Translations under genes and position numbers: made by a program
Origin: Citrobacter sp. Cu233
Lineage (GTDB): Bacteria; Pseudomonadota; Gammaproteobacteria; Enterobacterales; Enterobacteriaceae
NCBI RefSeq assembly: GCF_030332225.1
Contig: NZ_JAOWIF010000033.1
Span: 186,001-250,000, forward strand
Length of the DNA stretch: 64,000 nucleotides
Reading direction: 5' to 3'
The notes under the pieces: model-generated
What the model saw: the letters and a program-made list of their open reading frames with translations, nothing else
The model's database searches: none
What the model was told of the DNA's origin: nothing
Shown here: piece by piece, positions 25,227 to 47,803 of the stretch
Layout: each line of letters opens with the position of its first letter
How positions within the stretch are numbered: position 1 is the stretch's first letter

Positions 25227-27041
25227 ATGCCGTTAATTGCAGGGATTGATATCGGCAACGCCACCACGGAAGTGGCGTTGGCGCAGCATGGCCGGTTTAT
25301 CGCCAGCGGGATTGTCGCGACCACGGGCATGAAAGGAACGCGGGACAATATTGCCGGGGTGGTCGCTTCCCTGCAGCAGGCGCTGGAAAAAACGCCATGG
25401 TCGCTTAAAGATGTGGCGAAAATCTGTATCAATGAGGCCGCACCAGTAATTGGTGATGTGGCGATGGAAACGATCACGGAAACCATCATTACTGAATCGA
25501 CGATGATTGGTCATAACCCGCAAACCCCTGGCGGGGTCGGCGTGGGGATGGGGACCACGATCGCCGTGGAGCGCCTGGCATCGTTGAACGAGCCTCAGTT
25601 TGCCGAGGGTTGGATCCCATTGGTGGGTGAGGAAATGGATTTCCTCGAAGCCGTTTGGCTTATCAATGAGGCGCTGGATCGTGGCGTCAACGTGGTGGCG
25701 GCGATCCTGAAAAAAGATGATGGCGTACTGGTCAATAATCGCCTGCGTAGAACGATGCCGGTGGTTGATGAAGTCACGCTGCTGGAAAAAGTGCCGGAGG
25801 GGGTATTGGCGGCGGTCGAAGTCGCGGCCGCGGGCCAGGTTGTTCGTGCGCTGTCTAACCCCTACGGCATCGCCACGTTCTTTGCCCTGACGCCGGAGGA
25901 AACGCAAACCATCGTCCCTATTGCCAGGGCGCTGATTGGTAACCGCTCCGCCGTGGTGCTGAAAACGCCGCAGGGCGATGTGCGCTCAAGGGTGATCCCG
26001 GCGGGTAAGATCTTTATCCGCGGAGAAAGGCGCGGCGGCGAGGCTGACGTGGCGCAAGGGGCGCAGGCTATCATGCAGGCGATGAGCGCCTGTGCGCCTG
26101 TGTGTGACATTCGCGGTGAAGCGGGAACGCACGCAGGCGGTATGCTGGAACGCGTGCGTAAGGTGATGGCATCGCTGTCCGGGCATGACATGAACGCGGT
26201 GCATATTCAGGATTTACTGGCAGTTGATACGTTTATTCCTCGTAAGGTTCAGGGCGGCATCGCCGGGGAGTGTTCGATGGAAAATGCTGTCGGCATTGCG
26301 GCGATGGTGAAATCCGATCGTTTACAAATGCAGGCTATTGCCAGCGAGTTGAGCGCGCGGTTAAACACCTCTGTTGAAGTGGGGGGGGTAGAGGCCAATA
26401 TGGCCGTGACTGGCGCGTTAACGACGCCTGGATGTGCTGCGCCGCTGGCGATCCTCGATTTAGGCGCAGGTTCCACTGATGCTGCCATCATCAATAGCGA
26501 AGGTGCAGTAAAGGCGGTACATCTGGCCGGGGCAGGGAACATGGTCAGCCTGTTGATTCAGACGGAGCTGGGGCTGAGCGATCCGTTTCTGGCCGAGGAA
26601 ATAAAAAAATACCCGCTGGCGAAAGTAGAGAGCCTGTTCAGTATTCGTCATGAGAACGGTGCGGTGGAGTTTTTCCGCGAACCACTCAGCCCGTCGGTTT
26701 TTGCCAAAGTGGTGTATCTGAAAGACGGCGAGCTGATCCCCGTGGATAACCAGACTTCGCTGGAAAAAATTCGTCTGGTGCGACGTCAGGCTAAGGAGAA
26801 GGTCTTTGTGACGAACTGCCTGCGTGCATTACGGCAGGTGTCACCCGGCGGTTCCATTCGTGATATCACTTTTGTGGTGCTGGTGGGTGGCTCGTCGTTG
26901 GATTTTGAAATTCCGCAGATGATCACCGACGCGTTGGCGCATTACGGTGTCGTCGCAGGACAGGGCAATATCCGAGGGACCGAAGGGCCGCGTAATGCGG
27001 TGGCAACCGGCCTGGTTTTAGCCGGGGAAGCAAAAAAATAG
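25227..27041 (+). CDS. orfZ: Glycerol dehydratase reactivase large subunit (OrfZ/DhaF)
   Basis: Hsp70/actin-like ATPase that with OrfX removes damaged cobalamin from the dehydratase. From the ATG at 25227, preceded by GGAGGGA, it has 604 residues. The N-terminus carries the ATPase phosphate loop LIAGIDIGNATTEVAL, repeated in the centre as AILDLGAGSTDAAI, and the C-terminus has VVLVGGSSLDFEIPQM. Last gene of the dehydratase operon; a weak hairpin (27057-27076) without a T-tract follows. Confidence 0.94.
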   Translation: MPLIAGIDIGNATTEVALAQHGRFIASGIVATTGMKGTRDNIAGVVASLQQALEKTPWSLKDVAKICINEAAPVIGDVAMETITETIITESTMIGHNPQTPGGVGVGMGTTIAVERLASLNEPQFAEGWIPLVGEEMDFLEAVWLINEALDRGVNVVAAILKKDDGVLVNNRLRRTMPVVDEVTLLEKVPEGVLAAVEVAAAGQVVRALSNPYGIATFFALTPEETQTIVPIARALIGNRSAVVLKTPQGDVRSRVIPAGKIFIRGERRGGEADVAQGAQAIMQAMSACAPVCDIRGEAGTHAGGMLERVRKVMASLSGHDMNAVHIQDLLAVDTFIPRKVQGGIAGECSMENAVGIAAMVKSDRLQMQAIASELSARLNTSVEVGGVEANMAVTGALTTPGCAAPLAILDLGAGSTDAAIINSEGAVKAVHLAGAGNMVSLLIQTELGLSDPFLAEEIKKYPLAKVESLFSIRHENGAVEFFREPLSPSVFAKVVYLKDGELIPVDNQTSLEKIRLVRRQAKEKVFVTNCLRALRQVSPGGSIRDITFVVLVGGSSLDFEIPQMITDALAHYGVVAGQGNIRGTEGPRNAVATGLVLAGEAKK

Positions 27042-27175
27042 CGCAGAAAACAGTCGCCGCAAGCGTTTAGCTGCGGGGTAAATCAAATAAAGGCAACGTT
27101 CTCTTTGATATCCCGGCTGAGTTGGGTACATAGTATAAATGTGTCTCTCACGTGGTTAATTTTAAGGATAAGAGC

Positions 27176-27475
27176 ATGCCAACAGCAATTGAGAAAGCAT
27201 TGGATTTTATTGGTGGTATGAACACCTCGGTGTCAGTACCCCATTCAATGGACGAAAGTACCGCTAAGGGAATCTTAAAGTATTTGCATGACTTAGGTGT
27301 GCCAGCGAGTCCGGAAGTTGTGATGGCACGGGGTGAGCAGGAGGGATGGAATCCTGAGTTCACGAAAAAAGTGGCCGGATGGGCAGAAAAAGTGGCCTCC
27401 GGCAACCGTATCCTTATCAAGAATCCAGAGTATTTTTCGACCTATATGCAGGAGCAGCTCAAAGAACTTGTGTGA
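27176..27475 (+). CDS. DUF1889 (YoaC-like) small protein
   Basis: A 99-residue cytosolic protein resembling E. coli YoaC, a DUF1889 protein of unknown function. Matching stretches as recalled include MDESTAKGILKYLHDLGVPAS, QEGWNPEFTKKVAGWAEK and IKNPEYFSTYMQEQLKEL. The ATG at 27176 follows AAGGATAAGAGC, a suitable ribosome-binding site; nine codons lie in frame upstream but lack one. It sits 134 bp after orfZ on the same strand and may have its own promoter (TATAAA near 27134). A link to glycerol use is suggested only by position. Confidence 0.8.
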   Translation: MPTAIEKALDFIGGMNTSVSVPHSMDESTAKGILKYLHDLGVPASPEVVMARGEQEGWNPEFTKKVAGWAEKVASGNRILIKNPEYFSTYMQEQLKELV

Positions 27476-27491
27476 GCTGACTATCGCATAA

Positions 27492-27539
27492 AACGCTAAC
27501 GGACGTTTCCATCTCTGGATGGCAGCGTCCAAAAGCGTT
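27492..27539. repeat. Interrupted inverted repeat after the YoaC-like gene
   Basis: AACGCT...AGCGTT encloses GGACG...CGTCC, which encloses CCATC...GATGG, so a long interrupted hairpin can form 16 bases after the stop codon. There is no T-tract, so it may stabilise the mRNA end rather than terminate. The rest of the gap to 27910 is AT-rich and shows no gene; it must hold the promoter of the next operon. Confidence 0.5.
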
Positions 27540-27910
27540 GCCATAATTCTGATTAATCTCGATTGCCATCCTGGTGCGTTTAAAACGCGTGGCTAACTCT
27601 ATATCTTAAAAATAACCACGTTTTTATTATCTGGTTAACCTCTGACGATCTCCATTTCATAAAATACGCCATTTCGTTTTGTCCCTCTGGGCAAAATACA
27701 AATATGAATCTAATCAGGTCAGCGGTACCTGCGGAATCGTTGTGATCGCAGCGCAACCTACTCTGAGCGGCGTCTGCTCACCAACACGAAGTGTGTTTTT
27801 ATACTTTCCCGCCTGGAATCATCGTTTTTTCATGAATGTGTCACTATAGCCAAAAGCCTCATTGACGAATATCTCATTACTCAGCCATTCGTTACCCCAG
27901 GAATATATCT

Positions 27911-29332
27911 ATGTCTGCTAAAACGTTGTATGAAAAATTAGTTGAATCGCATACCGTTCGGGAACTTGATAACGAAGGGCATGTTTTACTTTATATCGAT
28001 CGTTCGATACTCAATGAATATACCAGTCCACAAGCATTTAGCGGGTTAAGGGAACGGGGGCGGCCGGTGCGGCATCCGGAAGCCTTTCTGCTGAATGTTG
28101 ATCATGTTAATCCCACCCGAACACAGCGCGATATGCTGATGACGGATCCCGGCGGTCAGTTGCAGGTTGATTATTTTCGGGAAAATGCCGCTGATTTTGG
28201 TATCACGTTATTTGATGTGCTGGACCCACGACAAGGGATAGAACATGTCGTTGCCCACGAGCAGGGGCTGGTCATGCCCGGAATGGTGATTGCGGCTGGC
28301 GACAGCCATACCACCACGTACGGTGCGTTCGGCGCTCTGGGATTTGGTATCGGTACGTCGGAAATCGAACACCTGCTGGCTACTCAGACGCTGGTCTATC
28401 GTAAGCTGAAAACCCTGCGTGTCAGCGTTAAGGGTGAATTACCTTTTGGTTGTTCTGCAAAGGATATCGTTCTTGAATTACTCGAACGTACTGGCGCAGA
28501 TGGCGCGACAGGATATGCCATCGAATTCGACGGTGAAACAATCAGTGCCCTGAGTGTTGAGGGGAGAATGACGCTTTGCAATATGGCCGTGGAGGCAGGG
28601 GCTCGCGGTGCGATTATTGCGCCGGATGCAAAGGTTTTTGACTATATCTACGGGAAGCCGCAAATGCCCACAGGTGAACTCTGGCAACAGGCATTGCAGG
28701 AATGGTCGCAGTTGAGTAGTGATGCCGATGCGGTTTTTGATAAGACCGTGACGATCGACTGTCTCGATCTTGAGCCTAAAGTGACCTGGGGGATCAGCCC
28801 GGATCAAACCTGTGCGATCACCGGCTATGTCCCATCCCCGGAACACGAAACGCATCCACTTAAATGCCTCGCGCTTGAGAAAGCTCTCCAGTATATGGAT
28901 CTGCGGCCCGGTACGCCGATGAGTGACATTCGTATTTCGCACGCTTTTATTGGCTCATGCACGAATGGTCGCATTGAGGATCTGCGGGCCGTCGCGAAAG
29001 TCGTGGCAGGACGCAAAATTGCCAGCCATGTGCGCGGGATTATTGTGCCCGGTTCAACGCAGGTGAGGTGCCAGGCGGAAGACGAGGGGCTGGCGAAAAT
29101 CTTCATTGACGCTGGTTTTGAATGGCGTCAGTCAGGTTGCTCAATGTGCCTTGCGATGAATGAGGACGTGCTGGCAGCAGGCGATCGCTGCGCATCGGGT
29201 ACGAACCGTAATTTCCCAGGGCGGCAGGGTGCAGGGGCAAGAACGCATCTAATGAGCCCGGCGATGGTCGCGGCAGCAGCGGTAGCAGGGCATCTGGTCG
29301 ATGTTAGGACATTACTTCAGGCGGGGGAATGA
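27911..29332 (+). CDS. Aconitase/LeuC-family hydro-lyase large subunit
   Basis: Large subunit of a two-subunit [4Fe-4S] dehydratase/isomerase. The 473-residue protein aligns end to end with LeuC of 3-isopropylmalate dehydratase. Cluster cysteines are at C350 (FIGSCTNGR), C410 and C413 (SGCSMCLAMN), and GDSHTTTYGAFGALGFGIGTSE is intact. LeuC has SCTNSR where this protein has SCTNGR. It is not in a leuABCD operon but next to a hydrolase and a TtdR-like regulator, so the substrate may differ: isopropylmalate, citramalate and maleate-type hydratases share this fold. AGGA lies 8 bases before the ATG. Confidence 0.85.
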   Translation: MSAKTLYEKLVESHTVRELDNEGHVLLYIDRSILNEYTSPQAFSGLRERGRPVRHPEAFLLNVDHVNPTRTQRDMLMTDPGGQLQVDYFRENAADFGITLFDVLDPRQGIEHVVAHEQGLVMPGMVIAAGDSHTTTYGAFGALGFGIGTSEIEHLLATQTLVYRKLKTLRVSVKGELPFGCSAKDIVLELLERTGADGATGYAIEFDGETISALSVEGRMTLCNMAVEAGARGAIIAPDAKVFDYIYGKPQMPTGELWQQALQEWSQLSSDADAVFDKTVTIDCLDLEPKVTWGISPDQTCAITGYVPSPEHETHPLKCLALEKALQYMDLRPGTPMSDIRISHAFIGSCTNGRIEDLRAVAKVVAGRKIASHVRGIIVPGSTQVRCQAEDEGLAKIFIDAGFEWRQSGCSMCLAMNEDVLAAGDRCASGTNRNFPGRQGAGARTHLMSPAMVAAAAVAGHLVDVRTLLQAGE

Positions 29333-29333
29333 G

Positions 29334-29960
29334 ATGGATACGTTTAAGCAAATTAGCGGGCGAATTGCGCCAATGCTGGAACCGAATATCGACACCGATG
29401 TGATTATGCCGAAACAGTTCCTGAAAGGGATCGATCGTCAGGGATTGAATAAAGGGGTGTTTTTCGATCGCCGTTTCCTGGGCAATGGTCAGCCTAATCC
29501 CGATTTTATTCTCAATATGCCGGGCTGGCAGGACGCGACGTTTTTGCTGGTCGGCCCCAATTTTGGCTGCGGATCGAGCCGTGAACATGCCGTTTGGGGA
29601 TTAAAACAGTTGGGCATCCGGGCGCTGTTAGGTTCCACTTTCGCCGGGATTTTTGATGACAACTGCCAGCGCAACGGGATCCTGACAATCTCTTTGGATG
29701 ACGCGTCTCTGGCTCGTCTGGCACTGTTAGCAGCGAAGGCTGACAGCAATTTGATCACGGTTTCTCTTGAACGCTGCGAGATTGTGACAGCAGACGAAAC
29801 ACTTCCTTTTGTCATTAGTGAACTCAAACGAGAGATGTTGGCCGCTGGCGAAGATGCGATTGCCTGGACACTGCAATATCTGCCAGAGATCGAAAATTTC
29901 GAGGCGCAGCATTACGCACGTCGCCCATGGTTAAAGCGTCCGGTATCCACAGGTGGCTAA
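29334..29960 (+). CDS. Aconitase/LeuD-family hydro-lyase small subunit
   Basis: Small (swivel-domain) subunit partner of the preceding gene; only one base separates the stop codon from this ATG, so translation is coupled. The 208-residue protein has the family motifs NIDTDVIMPKQFLKG, FFDRRFLGNGQPNPDFILN and NFGCGSSREHAVWGL. The GSSREHAVW loop sits over the active site. The C-terminal tail (about 185-208; EAQHYARRPWLKRPVSTGG) is longer and more basic than in E. coli LeuD as recalled. Confidence 0.85.
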   Translation: MDTFKQISGRIAPMLEPNIDTDVIMPKQFLKGIDRQGLNKGVFFDRRFLGNGQPNPDFILNMPGWQDATFLLVGPNFGCGSSREHAVWGLKQLGIRALLGSTFAGIFDDNCQRNGILTISLDDASLARLALLAAKADSNLITVSLERCEIVTADETLPFVISELKREMLAAGEDAIAWTLQYLPEIENFEAQHYARRPWLKRPVSTGG

Positions 29961-30021
29961 GAAAAGAGATGGCGATGAAACGGGTGCAATGTCGGGCAAG
30001 CAATGAAGACAGGAGACAGTG

Positions 30022-30936
30022 ATGAGTACAGTTATTGAATGCGGCGCTTCTCCATTTATTCCAGGGTTTGCATTAAAGGATGTACGGCTGCCAAATGGTT
30101 TAACAATCCGGGTTGCCACCGGAGGAAACGGTTCGCCGTTGGTGCTCTTACATGGCCATCCGCAGAACCACATCACATGGCGCAAAGTCGCACCGGAATT
30201 GGCGAAAAGCCATACGGTGATTTTGCCGGATTTACGGGGCTATGGAGACAGCGACAAGCCGGCGAGTGACCCGGCACATCGTACCTATTCAAAGCGTATG
30301 ATGGCGCAGGATATTGTCATGCTGATGGCGATTTTGGGTTATCCGCGGTTCGCTTTTGTCGGGCATGACCGTGGAGGACGAGTGGGACATCGGCTGGCCC
30401 TGGATTATCCTGACAGTGTGACGTGTTGCACGTTCATCGACATAGCCCCGACAGCCACAATGTACGCGTTAACCAATAAGGCGTTTGCCACGCGCTATTT
30501 TTGGTGGTTTTTCCTGATCCAACCTTTTCCATTACCGGAAACAATGATCGCGCTCGATCCGGCATTTTTTCTGCGTAAGCATATTGCAGGCCAGTTGAAA
30601 ACTGCGGGGGCGACATCAGAAGATGCGTTCAATGAATACCTGCGCTGTTACCAGAATCCAGAGATGATCCATGCGGTCTGCGAAGATTATCGTGCTGCGG
30701 CATCGATTGACCTTGAAGACGATGCTGCGGATGCGTCTGCACGTATTGAGTGTCCGTTACTGCTGCTGTGGGGAGCTCAGGGCACGGTCGGGCAGTTGTA
30801 TGATGTGGTGGATACCTGGAGAGAAAAAGCGACGCACGTGCAGGGTGAAGCATTGCCTTGCGGGCATTCTCTGCAAGAGGAGATCCCAGAGATCTTCATG
30901 CAGAAACTGCAGTCATTTTTGCGATCGGTGTTATAA
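30022..30936 (+). CDS. Alpha/beta hydrolase of the fluoroacetate dehalogenase type
   Basis: A 304-residue alpha/beta hydrolase resembling fluoroacetate/haloacetate dehalogenases. Visible elements are the oxyanion region LLHGHPQNHITW, the nucleophile D116 in GHDRGGRV with R117 and R120 (the pair that binds the substrate carboxylate in dehalogenases), D140 in FIDIAPT, Y223 in CEDYRAA and the base H282 in CGHSLQEE. The His-Trp halide pair of the true enzyme appears here as W161-W162. The Asp nucleophile fits halide or ester cleavage next to a carboxylate. AGGAGA lies 5 bases before the ATG. The substrate is unknown. Confidence 0.8.
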   Translation: MSTVIECGASPFIPGFALKDVRLPNGLTIRVATGGNGSPLVLLHGHPQNHITWRKVAPELAKSHTVILPDLRGYGDSDKPASDPAHRTYSKRMMAQDIVMLMAILGYPRFAFVGHDRGGRVGHRLALDYPDSVTCCTFIDIAPTATMYALTNKAFATRYFWWFFLIQPFPLPETMIALDPAFFLRKHIAGQLKTAGATSEDAFNEYLRCYQNPEMIHAVCEDYRAAASIDLEDDAADASARIECPLLLLWGAQGTVGQLYDVVDTWREKATHVQGEALPCGHSLQEEIPEIFMQKLQSFLRSVL

Positions 30937-30969
30937 CATTGTCATTTTCCGTCATCTCGCTGCGATGTT

Positions 30970-31935
30970 ATGAAAACGACGCCTGTAGGTAAAAAGCATC
31001 GCCAGCCTCTTGAGGGCTGGCCTTCTGTTGAAGATCTTTTCGTTTTTGTCACCGTTGCCCGCAACGGTGGATTTGCCCGGGCAGCGCTGGAGCTGGGGCT
31101 ATCCCCCTCCTATATCAGCAAACGTATCGCTATTCTTGAAAAATGCCTCAACATCCGGCTTTTTTTCCGTAATAACAGAGTGATGCGTCTCACTCCGGAA
31201 GGTGAAAATGCGCTGGATGGGGCGATGCAGGTCGTCAGTGAAATGGATGGCTTTGTCAGTCGTCTGGATAATCAACGTGGCGTGTTGGCGGGTCATATCA
31301 CCATCAACTGCTCATTTGGTTTTGGGCATAAATATGTCGCAGAGGCGCTGTCGTCATTTATGATCGCCTACCCTGATATCACGGTAAAACTCATGCTAAC
31401 AGATCGTGAAGTGGATCTTGTGGAGGAGGGAGTCGATATTGAGATTCGTGTTGGGGATGACATCAATGAATTGTATATCGCAAGGCAATTGGCCACTAAT
31501 CGCCGGATCCTTTGTGCTTCCCCTGAGTATCTCGAACGCCACGGTAAACCAGAGTCTGTTAGTGCGCTTGTGCAACATGATTGCCTGATGATTCAGGAAA
31601 AAAACTCGGCATTTGGCAACTGGATATTAACGGATGGCAGGCAGCAGACACATTGCCGACTAAACGGTTTTCATTCTTCCAACAGCGGTAGCGTGGTGCT
31701 CATTTGGGCACTGAAAGGTCATGGCATTACATTGCGATCGGAATGGGATGTTGCGCAGTATATTGCACGCGGTGAACTGGTTCACGTATTGTCCCAGTGG
31801 TATCAGGAAGCGAATATCTGGGCCGTATATACCCGGCGTTCATCAAGCTCTGATCGTATCAAAACCTGCATAGATTTCCTCACTGAATATTTCGCGCAAT
31901 GCTTGCCGGGCGGCAAAGCACTCGACAGATTGTAA
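30970..31935 (+). CDS. LysR-family regulator related to TtdR/DmlR
   Basis: A 321-residue LysR regulator with an N-terminal winged helix-turn-helix (about 20-80; RAALELGLSPSYISKRIAILE) and a periplasmic-binding-type effector domain. It shares many stretches with TtdR encoded at 46862 in this window: CSFGFG, RILCA.P.YL, HDCL, SSNSG and LRSEWDV. TtdR and its relative DmlR sense tartrate or malate, so a hydroxy-dicarboxylate effector is plausible. Unusually for a LysR gene it is last in the same-strand cluster, 33 bp after the hydrolase, rather than divergent. Confidence 0.88.
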   Translation: MKTTPVGKKHRQPLEGWPSVEDLFVFVTVARNGGFARAALELGLSPSYISKRIAILEKCLNIRLFFRNNRVMRLTPEGENALDGAMQVVSEMDGFVSRLDNQRGVLAGHITINCSFGFGHKYVAEALSSFMIAYPDITVKLMLTDREVDLVEEGVDIEIRVGDDINELYIARQLATNRRILCASPEYLERHGKPESVSALVQHDCLMIQEKNSAFGNWILTDGRQQTHCRLNGFHSSNSGSVVLIWALKGHGITLRSEWDVAQYIARGELVHVLSQWYQEANIWAVYTRRSSSSDRIKTCIDFLTEYFAQCLPGGKALDRL

Positions 31936-32303: not shown

Positions 32304-32379
32304 TGGTGGCCCCTGCTGGACTTGAACCAGCGACCAAGCGATTATGAGTCGCCTGCTCTAACCACTGAGCTAAGGGGCC
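32304..32379 (-). tRNA. ileX: tRNA-Ile2 (CAU anticodon)
   Basis: A 76-nt gene with the encoded CCA end. The minus strand starts GGCCCCTTAGCTCAG, and the anticodon loop CTCATAATC carries CAT. The acceptor GGCCCCT pairs with AGGGGCC and the T-arm is CTGGTTCAAGTCCAG. A CAT anticodon in this location (beside mug/rpoD) is ileX, in which TilS converts C34 to lysidine so that AUA is read as isoleucine. A methionine tRNA would look alike by anticodon alone; gene order decides. Confidence 0.93.
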
Positions 32380-45743: not shown

Positions 45744-46648
45744 AACGCGCTCCGGGTGTGAGACAGATTTTCGAAGGAGAGGTCAGCATGAACCAGCAGC
45801 GTGCCGCGACGGTGCGCCCAGCAGCCTGTAGAGACGGCGACGCCGATAGTGGAGGGATGGCGTGCGGCAGATTCGATATGTACGCCCATTACGGAGCTAT
45901 TCCCGGTCAACCCTTGCGGGCCAATGCCCAGACGGTTAAGCCCCTCTTCCAGGCGCAGTTCCAGTTCAGCCGCTTTCGGGTTCGGGTGACGTGACCCGAT
46001 AGGACGCAGTACCGCTTTTCGTGACAGCACGGCCGCGGTTTCTACCGAGGTAGCAATACCGACACCGACCAGTACCGGCGGGCAGGCGTTGACCGCCAGC
46101 GTTGAGATATTTTCGAAGACAAATTTCACTACGCCTTCGTAGCCTTCAGAAGGCATTAACACTTTGGAACGTCCCGGTAGCGTACAGCCACCGCCCGCCA
46201 TGTAGACTTCGATTTCTGCATCGTCGCCGTCAGGGATGATATCCCAGGTGACCCATGGCACACCGGTGCCGGTATTTTTACCGGTATTCACTTCGTCAAA
46301 AATCTCGACCGCGTTATGACGTAGCGGCGCTTTGACGGTCGCGTCCTCAACGGCTTGTTTCAAAATGCTTTGCAGTTCGCCCAGCAGCGGAAAGCGGGAG
46401 CCGACCTTGACAAAGAACATGATTTCGCCGGTGTCCTGACAGGCCGGGCGGTTCAGGTCGATAGCCTTCTGCATGTTGTCAAACATGGTGTGGTAAATGA
46501 TTTTACCCATTGGTGACGTTTCACCTTCGCGTAGCTGTTTTAATTTATCTACGACGTCGTCGGGCATGCGGGTAGAAATCATGGCGGTAAAATTCGCGAC
46601 AATGCTAGTCAGCGTGTTTATCGCATTTTGGTTATTTTGCTTGCTCAT
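45740..46648 (-). CDS. ttdA: L-tartrate dehydratase alpha subunit
   Basis: Large subunit carrying the iron-sulfur cluster. With the ATG at 46648, preceded by GGAG, it has 302 residues, close to E. coli. Family features are [40 protein letters not shown] and [14 protein letters not shown], each with a conserved cysteine available for the cluster. First gene of ttdABT; divergent from ttdR. Confidence 0.95.
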
Positions 46649-46861
46649 TATGCTAACTCCAGTTCTTTTATTTATCTGGAAATAAATTCTCCGGCACAAA
46701 CTACCACTAAAAATGTGGCTTTATATTATTTGCCACTGTGAATATCCAATTAACAGTTCGTGAATGATGTCCAGATAAGGCAATAAAAATTGCGCAAGGG
46801 CAGGGTTTAATTCGTATCAGAGAATTACACTGCGGTTAACAACATCACGGATATACTGAAC

Positions 46862-47803
46862 ATGCTGAACACTTATCCCCTGGCGAAAGACCTGCAGGTG
46901 CTGGTTGAGATTGTTCATAGTGGCAGCTTTAGCGCAGCCGCCGCGACGCTTGGACAAACGCCTGCGTTTGTGACAAAACGCATTCAGATCCTCGAATCTA
47001 CGCTGAGCACGACACTGCTTAGCCGCTCTGCACGCGGCGTGGTATTAACGGAAAGCGGGCAACGCTGTTATGAACATGCGCTGGAGATCCTTGCCCGTTA
47101 TCAGCATCTGGTGGATGATGTCACACAAATCAAAACGCGTCCGGAAGGGATGATTCGTATCGGCTGTAGCTTTGGATTTGGGCGTAGTTATATTGCTCCT
47201 GCTATTACCGAATTGATGCACAGCTATCCTGAATTACAGGTGCATTTTGAGCTTTACGATCGGCAAATTGATTTAGCTCAGGATAATATCGATCTGGATA
47301 TTCGGATTAATGATGATATTCCTGATTATTATATTGCGCATTTGTTAACGAAAAACAAAAGAATATTGTGTGCCGCACCGATATATTTACAAAAATATGG
47401 CCTGCCGATGACGTTACAGGAATTAAGCCATCACGATTGCCTGGTAACGAAAGAGCGCGATATGACCCACGGGGTATGGGAGCTCGACAATGGTCAGGAG
47501 AAAAAAACGGTTAAGGTAGCAGGGCACCTCTCGTCCAACAGCGGTGAGATAGTGCTGCAGTGGGCGCTGCAAGGAAAGGGGATTATGTTACGCTCCGAAT
47601 GGGATGTGCAGCCGTTTCTGCGCAGCGGCGAGCTGGTTCGCGTACTGCCAGACTACGCGCAGAGCGCCAACATTTGGGCGGTTTATAAGGAGCCGCTGTA
47701 TCGCAGCGTTAAGTTACGCGTGTGCGTGGAGTTTCTGGCAACGTGGTGTCAGCACAGATTGGGGAAGCCTGTTGAGGGGTATCAGATTCCACAAGCCGGA
47801 TAA
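46862..47803 (+). CDS. ttdR: LysR-family activator of ttdABT
   Basis: A 313-residue LysR activator of L-tartrate fermentation, acting from the divergent promoter region shared with ttdA (213 bp). The DNA-binding helix is [21 protein letters not shown]; the effector domain has [14 protein letters not shown] and LRSEWDV. A REP palindrome begins inside its last codons. It is clearly related to the LysR encoded at 30970. Confidence 0.94.

Follow-up and report, generated by a model that had tools for sequence, protein, structure and literature searches.

What does a second leuC- and leuD-like gene pair do in the genome of Citrobacter sp. Cu233, where it forms a cluster with an alpha/beta hydrolase gene and a lysR gene? 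The cluster lies in a stretch of 64,000 nucleotides of contig NZ_JAOWIF010000033.1 (the window, from whose first letter positions are counted), and an earlier note, made from the sequence alone, described its four genes (leuC2, leuD2, the hydrolase gene and lysR) as lying on one strand with gaps of 1, 61 and 33 base pairs (bp), in agreement with the open reading frame (ORF) coordinates (Table 1). Its domain assignments agree with Pfam and NCBIfam searches, in which LeuC2 matches Aconitase with 517.9 bits and scores highest among NCBIfam models with PRK12466 (798.5 bits), LeuD2 matches Aconitase_C and the hydrolase matches Abhydrolase_1. The marks of the LeuCD hydro-lyase superfamily are all present (three cluster Cys, a GSSRE motif and two subunits), and retention of the three Cys in LeuC2 and of GSSRE in LeuD2 indicates that the hydro-lyase should be active. 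The results described below indicate that the cluster is a real and mobile catabolic module, probably functional and misnamed in databases. The reading that we favor, and consider reasonably probable, is that it represents, in reduced form, a horizontally spread operon for the catabolism of a C4 (hydroxy)dicarboxylate.

The earlier note held the pair to be distinct from the leucine enzyme, a view that it tied beforehand to the presence of another leuC in the genome and to the place of the pair in a tree with housekeeping LeuC/LeuD. Another leuC does exist (contig C32, 353770-355122), adjoining leuB plus an ORF resembling LeuA by eye, and the genome holds two more aconitase-family genes that are AcnA- and AcnB-like judged by length alone. 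The window pair shares 52% (LeuC) and 38% (LeuD) identity with the leuCD of its own genome. A LeuC tree of 103 rows places the 37 module rows on a single branch (SH-like approximate likelihood-ratio test, 95) that includes no leuB-linked row; 37 leuB-linked rows (the genome's own leuC counted twice, as L001 and L176) lie outside and 24 rows belong to neither group. A combined LeuC and LeuD tree of 40 rows splits 22 module rows from 18 leuB-linked rows at 100/100, which leaves the window pair outside the leuB-linked housekeeping group, and a tree uniting the pair with its own genome's leuCD is rejected (approximately unbiased test, p-AU 0.003). Module rows were picked by the author on similarity and neighborhood; the leuB-linked L153 fell in the leuB group, and the leuB rows L071 and L143, which have no LeuC row, were left out of the combined tree. 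Furthermore, 34 LeuC and 13 LeuD positions distinguish 34 core module rows from 36 leuB-linked rows, a position counting as distinguishing if a given residue occurs in at least 90% of module rows and in no more than 10% of leuB-linked rows; the rows are related, so these changes are not independent. Gly32 and Asp34 of the altered LeuD loop are present in 34/34 core module rows, and the loop reads FLRGIDK and FLRIIDK in the distant members L159 and L234, respectively. The solved LeuD 2hcu also has ID in this loop, so that Asp34 by itself is not diagnostic. The second leuC beside leuB, together with the separate clades in the trees, argues from sequence that the window pair is not the housekeeping isopropylmalate isomerase.

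Both the pair and isopropylmalate isomerase LeuCD (Enzyme Commission number, EC, 4.2.1.33) have two subunits, the cluster Cys residues and GSSRE; unlike that enzyme, the window pair belongs to a separate clade, has an altered LeuD loop, is not linked to leuB and stands with other partner genes. Database names suggest a spare isopropylmalate isomerase that serves leucine synthesis, and the window genes do pass the equivalog cut-offs for leuC (620.7 vs 560.25 bits) and leuD (171.4 vs 116.25 bits), although these models fail to tell the two clades apart. The missing leuB link, the 100/100 split and the catabolic neighbors make such a role very improbable, as does the leucine auxotrophy of Salmonella leuD mutants, which persists despite the supQ-newD locus unless supQ is mutated. 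The statement of the earlier note that no isopropylmalate dehydrogenase gene is nearby is consistent with a search for isopropylmalate/tartrate dehydrogenase-type proteins, which gave no match on the window's contig (leuA was not searched for).

The association of these genes is not due to chance, because leuD2 adjoins leuC2 in all 35 enterobacterial loci inspected by tblastn (L006-L040), with a related hydrolase in 30/35 and a related LysR in 35/35 (about 8 kb distant in L033). A sample of 392 genomes of the family was also approached from the hydrolase side: the 1.5-kb flanks contain LeuC2 or LeuD2 in 15 of 17 loci whose hydrolases are at least 69% identical (the window among them) and in 11 of 13 loci with more distant hydrolases (46-52% identity), two further 47% matches not being among the counted loci. 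Hydrolases with no LeuCD nearby are those of L089/L167, L094/L169, L106/L165 and L112/L163. The hydrolase-LeuCD link also holds in Moraxella (L230), Methylobacterium (L233), two Pseudomonadota loci that group with Methylobacterium (L152 and L154) and Caballeronia (L234). The proposal that the hydrolase and the hydro-lyase act together is consequently supported by linkage, which does not speak to the order of steps that the earlier note had suggested. A comparison with other Citrobacter, as that note advised, gave a divided result: Citrobacter sp. wls619 and C. youngae carry the module, and in the five other Citrobacter genomes of the hydrolase draw the best match, at E 1.5e-6, is not a close hydrolase. 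The distribution of the module within the genus is thus patchy.

A fuller gene order, MFS-leuC2-leuD2-FAH-hydrolase-lysR, is found in a Salmonella-like genome (G260; loci L168 and L272) and on a Klebsiella pneumoniae plasmid (L229). LeuC2 is held at at least 60% identity by 85 plasmid records, and Klebsiella accounts for 60 of the 87 plasmid records that match at E 1e-160 or better, these records being redundant and one having been opened. Because Pluralibacter, Rouxiella silvae, Raoultella and Sodalis loci carry FAH at the same place, loss of this gene is the simpler story for Citrobacter. No MFS or FAH remnants were found in the window by tblastn, the 61-bp gap had no match in plasmids, and megablast gave no match in E. 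coli genomes. The reduced form of the window, without MFS and FAH, is shared by C. youngae, and ratios of nonsynonymous to synonymous substitution (dN/dS) of 0.042-0.068 against this species and 0.044-0.080 against G260 (rough, as the synonymous divergence, dS, exceeds 1 for three genes) indicate purifying selection on the four genes. Since all four remaining genes are under such selection, the reduced operon appears to be still in use. The cluster is best defined as a new variant and not as a new kind of system. A literature search that covered mainly open-licence papers and few older genetics papers found none on the module (PMC3810377 contains nothing on this locus), and we do not claim that it has not been described.

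Insights into the substrate class come from the transporters that stand beside the pair. Lelliottia and Atlantibacter loci contain a 2HCT (citrate/malate-type) transporter whose score of 485 bits falls short of the cut-off of 549, and Bradyrhizobium from peanut likewise has a 2HCT protein beside the pair. A sodium:dicarboxylate symporter lies beside the pair in L152 and L234 (56% alike to each other), TctC in L159, and an MFS transporter in the Salmonella-like, Klebsiella and some further copies. These transporters vary by lineage yet agree in class, belonging to dicarboxylate, 2-hydroxycarboxylate or tricarboxylate families. The earlier note compared the regulator to TtdR and DmlR, which fits both its best NCBIfam model (TtdR, 303.9 bits, under the equivalog cut-off of 398 and thus short of TtdR membership) and its 44% and 40% identity to two proteins of its own genome that we take to be DmlR and TtdR. 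D-malate is the inducer of DmlR, and L- and meso-tartrate are the inducers of TtdR. A fumarase/TtdA-family gene and a TtdR-like regulator lie in the same window (45800-47749), about 14 kb from the cluster. In Winslowiella, the cluster includes an added TarD-type protein that matches Bll6730, a D-tartrate dehydratase, over its full length (743 bits). The Citrobacter genome has a protein of the same type, 91% identical to that of Winslowiella, elsewhere (G000:C24:168470-169630, L209) with no module genes nearby.

The transporters, the regulator and the TarD-type neighbor point to C4 hydroxy-dicarboxylates, and the transporter families together with the likeness of LysR to the DmlR- and TtdR-like proteins make a catabolic C4-diacid role likely by association, in line with the catabolic role put forward in the earlier note. 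The TtdAB-TtdR, TarD and DmlA-DmlR systems are similar in having a related regulator and C4 hydroxy-diacid substrates; in contrast, the dehydratases and the dehydrogenase of those systems come from different families. An assignment of the pair to a C5 acid (citramalate or citraconate) or a tricarboxylate would follow the solved relatives (isopropylmalate/citramalate isomerase and homoaconitase) and would suit the TctC and CitMHS genes beside some members and the Lelliottia 2HCT protein, which is best with the citrate symporter family. The dicarboxylate symporters of two distant clade members and the DmlR/TtdR kind of regulator render it unlikely.

Within the C4 class, maleate also has to be considered. 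In this alternative LeuC2D2 would be a maleate hydratase, the D-malate formed would be oxidized by the DmlA-type enzyme of the genome, and the hydrolase or FAH would free maleate from a precursor. A LeuCD-type maleate hydratase is known, and the window LysR is closest to the DmlR-like protein, whose adjoining gene is DmlA-type and over the TIGR02089 cut-off. Dicarboxylate transporters would fit, and the FAH family includes maleylpyruvate hydrolase, which the module FAH matches weakly (71 bits). On the other hand, 2HCT transporters carry 2-hydroxy acids and are not known to take maleate; in addition, no ring-cleavage gene stands in the part of the neighborhood that was annotated, and the hydrolase would be left with no clear task. 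The maleate hydratase HbzIJ and the dimethylmalate dehydratase DmdAB are hydro-lyases of the LeuCD family that act in catabolism; among the neighbors annotated here, which were not screened systematically for such genes, none belongs to gentisate or nicotinate metabolism. Maleate is a tentative candidate and a close rival of the reaction favored below.

The active site of the hydrolase provides further constraints. Its nearest solved relatives are 4nvr (named a putative acyltransferase), Alr0039 and dehalogenase-type proteins, and it aligns with the solved fluoroacetate dehalogenase 9c9f at 294 bits, including the HDRGGR motif, so that the Asp nucleophile and the Arg pair noted earlier are indeed present. 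Of 51 aligned hydrolases, 46 retain the Asp and both Arg residues (the set is partly redundant, as L028/L164 and L031/L161 each seem to represent one locus), and binding of a carboxylate is likely. Of the halide-site His-Trp-Tyr, the Trp and Tyr are kept and the His is replaced by Trp. The resulting cap motif F-W-W occurs in 34/51 hydrolases, window included, both in LeuCD clusters and in two copies without LeuCD in the 14-15 kb fetched (L167 and L169). The x-H-W form of the dehalogenases is found in 16/51, which are more distant and some of which also stand beside LeuCD, and, apart from the window's own, in 12/12 matches of the Caballeronia hydrolase. The term dehalogenase-like used in the earlier note consequently holds for the Asp and the Arg pair and breaks down at the halide site. 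An operon for the detoxification of haloacids or fluoroacetate, with the hydrolase as the dehalogenase, would draw on the match to 9c9f and on the retained Asp, Arg pair and cap Tyr; it fails for this subtype because the halide-site His is Trp in the 34 hydrolases that include the window's. Judged on these residues, a fluoroacetate dehalogenase identity is unlikely, and we give the detoxification operon little credence. In summary, the protein resembles fluoroacetate dehalogenase and Cif-type epoxide hydrolases in fold, Asp nucleophile and cap Tyr (and the dehalogenase in its Arg pair) and differs from them in the Trp at the halide-site His and in the LeuCD association.

Returning to the C4 (hydroxy)dicarboxylate operon, LeuC2-LeuD2 would be a dedicated [4Fe-4S] hydro-lyase that has departed from the isopropylmalate function, and LysR would sense the acid. 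The reaction that we favor for LeuC2D2, at a level of confidence no higher than that for maleate within the same class, is conversion of meso-tartrate to oxaloacetate. Since replacement of the isopropyl group of (2R,3S)-3-isopropylmalate by OH gives (2R,3S)-tartrate, which is meso-tartrate, the stereochemistry of the family itself would give the enol or the hydrate of oxaloacetate: dehydration of meso-tartrate would yield enol-oxaloacetate, and full isomerization would yield oxaloacetate hydrate. To form meso-tartrate, the hydrolase would act with inversion, opening trans-epoxysuccinate or a different alpha-substituted succinate, its Arg pair holding the carboxylate while the Asp nucleophile attacks the neighboring carbon. 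Where it is kept, the FAH protein may handle the enol or decarboxylate oxaloacetate. The specific pathway in which the hydrolase is a trans-epoxysuccinate hydrolase (EC 3.3.2.4) and LeuC2D2 is a meso-tartrate dehydratase giving oxaloacetate is a rather doubtful proposal. Both are orphan activities, for which we know of no reference sequence.

Published observations on tartrate use bear on such a route. FumA and FumB are inactive on meso-tartrate (PMC3565967), Salmonella ST313 respires meso-tartrate though its ttdA is a pseudogene (PMC4372345), and meso-tartrate does not induce Salmonella ttdA (PMC11237755). Taken together, these findings suggest that a separate meso-tartrate route may well exist, with the module locus as a candidate.

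Several observations weigh against this reading. All of the support for meso-tartrate as the substrate is by association. The cap Trp also takes the place of the His in a His-Tyr pair that opens epoxides, which weakens the epoxide proposal for this subtype. Similarly, the usual lid His of FAH, a catalytic residue, is replaced by Lys in 10/10 readable rows of the module FAH (the residue could not be read in an eleventh row, a 35% relative), so that oxaloacetate tautomerase activity (PMC10825186) is unproven for this protein. The passages of PMC4372345 link differing use of L- and meso-tartrate to ttdA and name no other gene, and they report that SL1344 uses meso-tartrate less than ST313. A link between TarD and FAH as a general sign of tartrate use was rejected, as module FAH, LeuCD2 or hydrolase was found in 0/20 inspected TarD loci (of 38 places), among which is the TarD locus of the Citrobacter genome itself. 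The hydrolase is missing from 5/35 enterobacterial loci and from the Bradyrhizobium and Sinorhizobium loci, the last of which stands beside ETF and HpcH/HpaI genes. In the gammaproteobacterial L148 and L149 the pair lies among CitMHS, 2-hydroxyacid dehydrogenase, AtuA and PrpD genes, and L231 also stands among other genes. Because of these loci, the clade members need not share one substrate. The PA2206 region was also considered as a relative, and the passages available on it were uninformative.

The Salmonella-like copy connects the module to classical genetics. In G260, 4.1 kb separate the end of the proA match (368645) from the start of leuC2 (372774), an interval that contains a tRNA-Thr gene, a truncated diol dehydratase reactivase gene (from residue 362), a DUF1889 gene and an MFS gene. 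Window positions 26319-27543 match this interval of G260 at 89% DNA identity, and the reactivase gene is whole in Citrobacter; from these features it seems that part of a Citrobacter-like locus was moved to the vicinity of proA to give the Salmonella-like copy. In L272:5908-6631 the reactivase fragment lies beside DUF1889, and transposase-looking sequence (by eye) separates the fragment from tRNA-Thr. The dS of lysR (window 30970-31935 vs L272:12665-13615) is 0.34, far below the 1.0-1.5 of the neighboring genes, which suggests that this end of the module has undergone recombination. In Salmonella, genetic mapping placed the suppressor locus supQ-newD close to proAB, and NewD can take over from LeuD once supQ is mutated. 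The Salmonella-like copy, a second leuC/leuD-like pair beside proA, is a strong match to this locus in content and place; the Citrobacter copy differs in sitting elsewhere without MFS and FAH.

Table 1. Features of the cluster and its flanks, in window positions.
Feature	Position	Strand	Description
leuC2	27911..29332	+	LeuC-family (PRK12466 type) [4Fe-4S] hydro-lyase, large subunit; expected cluster ligands Cys 350, 410, 413
leuD2	29334..29960	+	Small subunit, start ATG (MDTFKQ); GSSRE motif intact; loop FLKG(I/V)DR differs from leuB-linked LeuD
alpha/beta hydrolase	30022..30936	+	Fluoroacetate dehalogenase/epoxide hydrolase superfamily; start ATG, in-frame GTG at 30019; close homologue of PDB 4nvr
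lysR	30970..31935	+	LysR regulator; 44% identity to protein adjoining own DmlA-type gene, 40% to one adjoining fumarase/TtdA-family gene
240-bp stretch	27544..27783	+	blastn against L272: corresponds to about 1.5 kb, MFS transporter gene included, in the Salmonella-like copy
61-bp gap	29961..30021	+	Slot of FAH-family gene in other copies; Salmonella-like alignment, 845 bp vs 14 unmatched bp
DUF1889 gene	27152..27475	+	Adjoins module in Citrobacter and Salmonella-like copy; 97% protein identity

The Citrobacter cluster follows the diol dehydratase reactivase gene and precedes tRNA-Met and rpoD, and the DUF1889 gene is probably a passenger. The tRNA-Met gene (32304-32379) begins about 370 bp past the cluster, and the Salmonella-like copy is likewise near a tRNA gene. 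A promoter scan gave the level of shuffled sequence (7 vs 5.4, standard deviation 2.5), and a terminator scan was slightly above it (9 vs 5.3, standard deviation 2.4). On the Klebsiella plasmid the full module lies between insertion sequence elements, near pco copper-resistance genes. A Moraxella osloensis plasmid (L230:9977-10538) has the module lysR annotated in two pieces, with TIR/SIR2-type genes upstream, and in L055, a plasmid record named Pseudomonas, the module is broken into short ORFs and the adjoining gene is 86% identical to a Pantoea neighbor.

The annotated records opened or listed assign these genes to leucine biosynthesis, an annotation that a separate, probably catabolic clade corrects. 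Recognition of the clade gives a likely chemical class, and the normal role of supQ-newD and the two orphan activities become directly testable. If true, the trans-epoxysuccinate/meso-tartrate pathway would explain the use of meso-tartrate by Salmonella that lack ttdA as well as the normal function of supQ-newD, and it would be a pathway that travels on Klebsiella plasmids.

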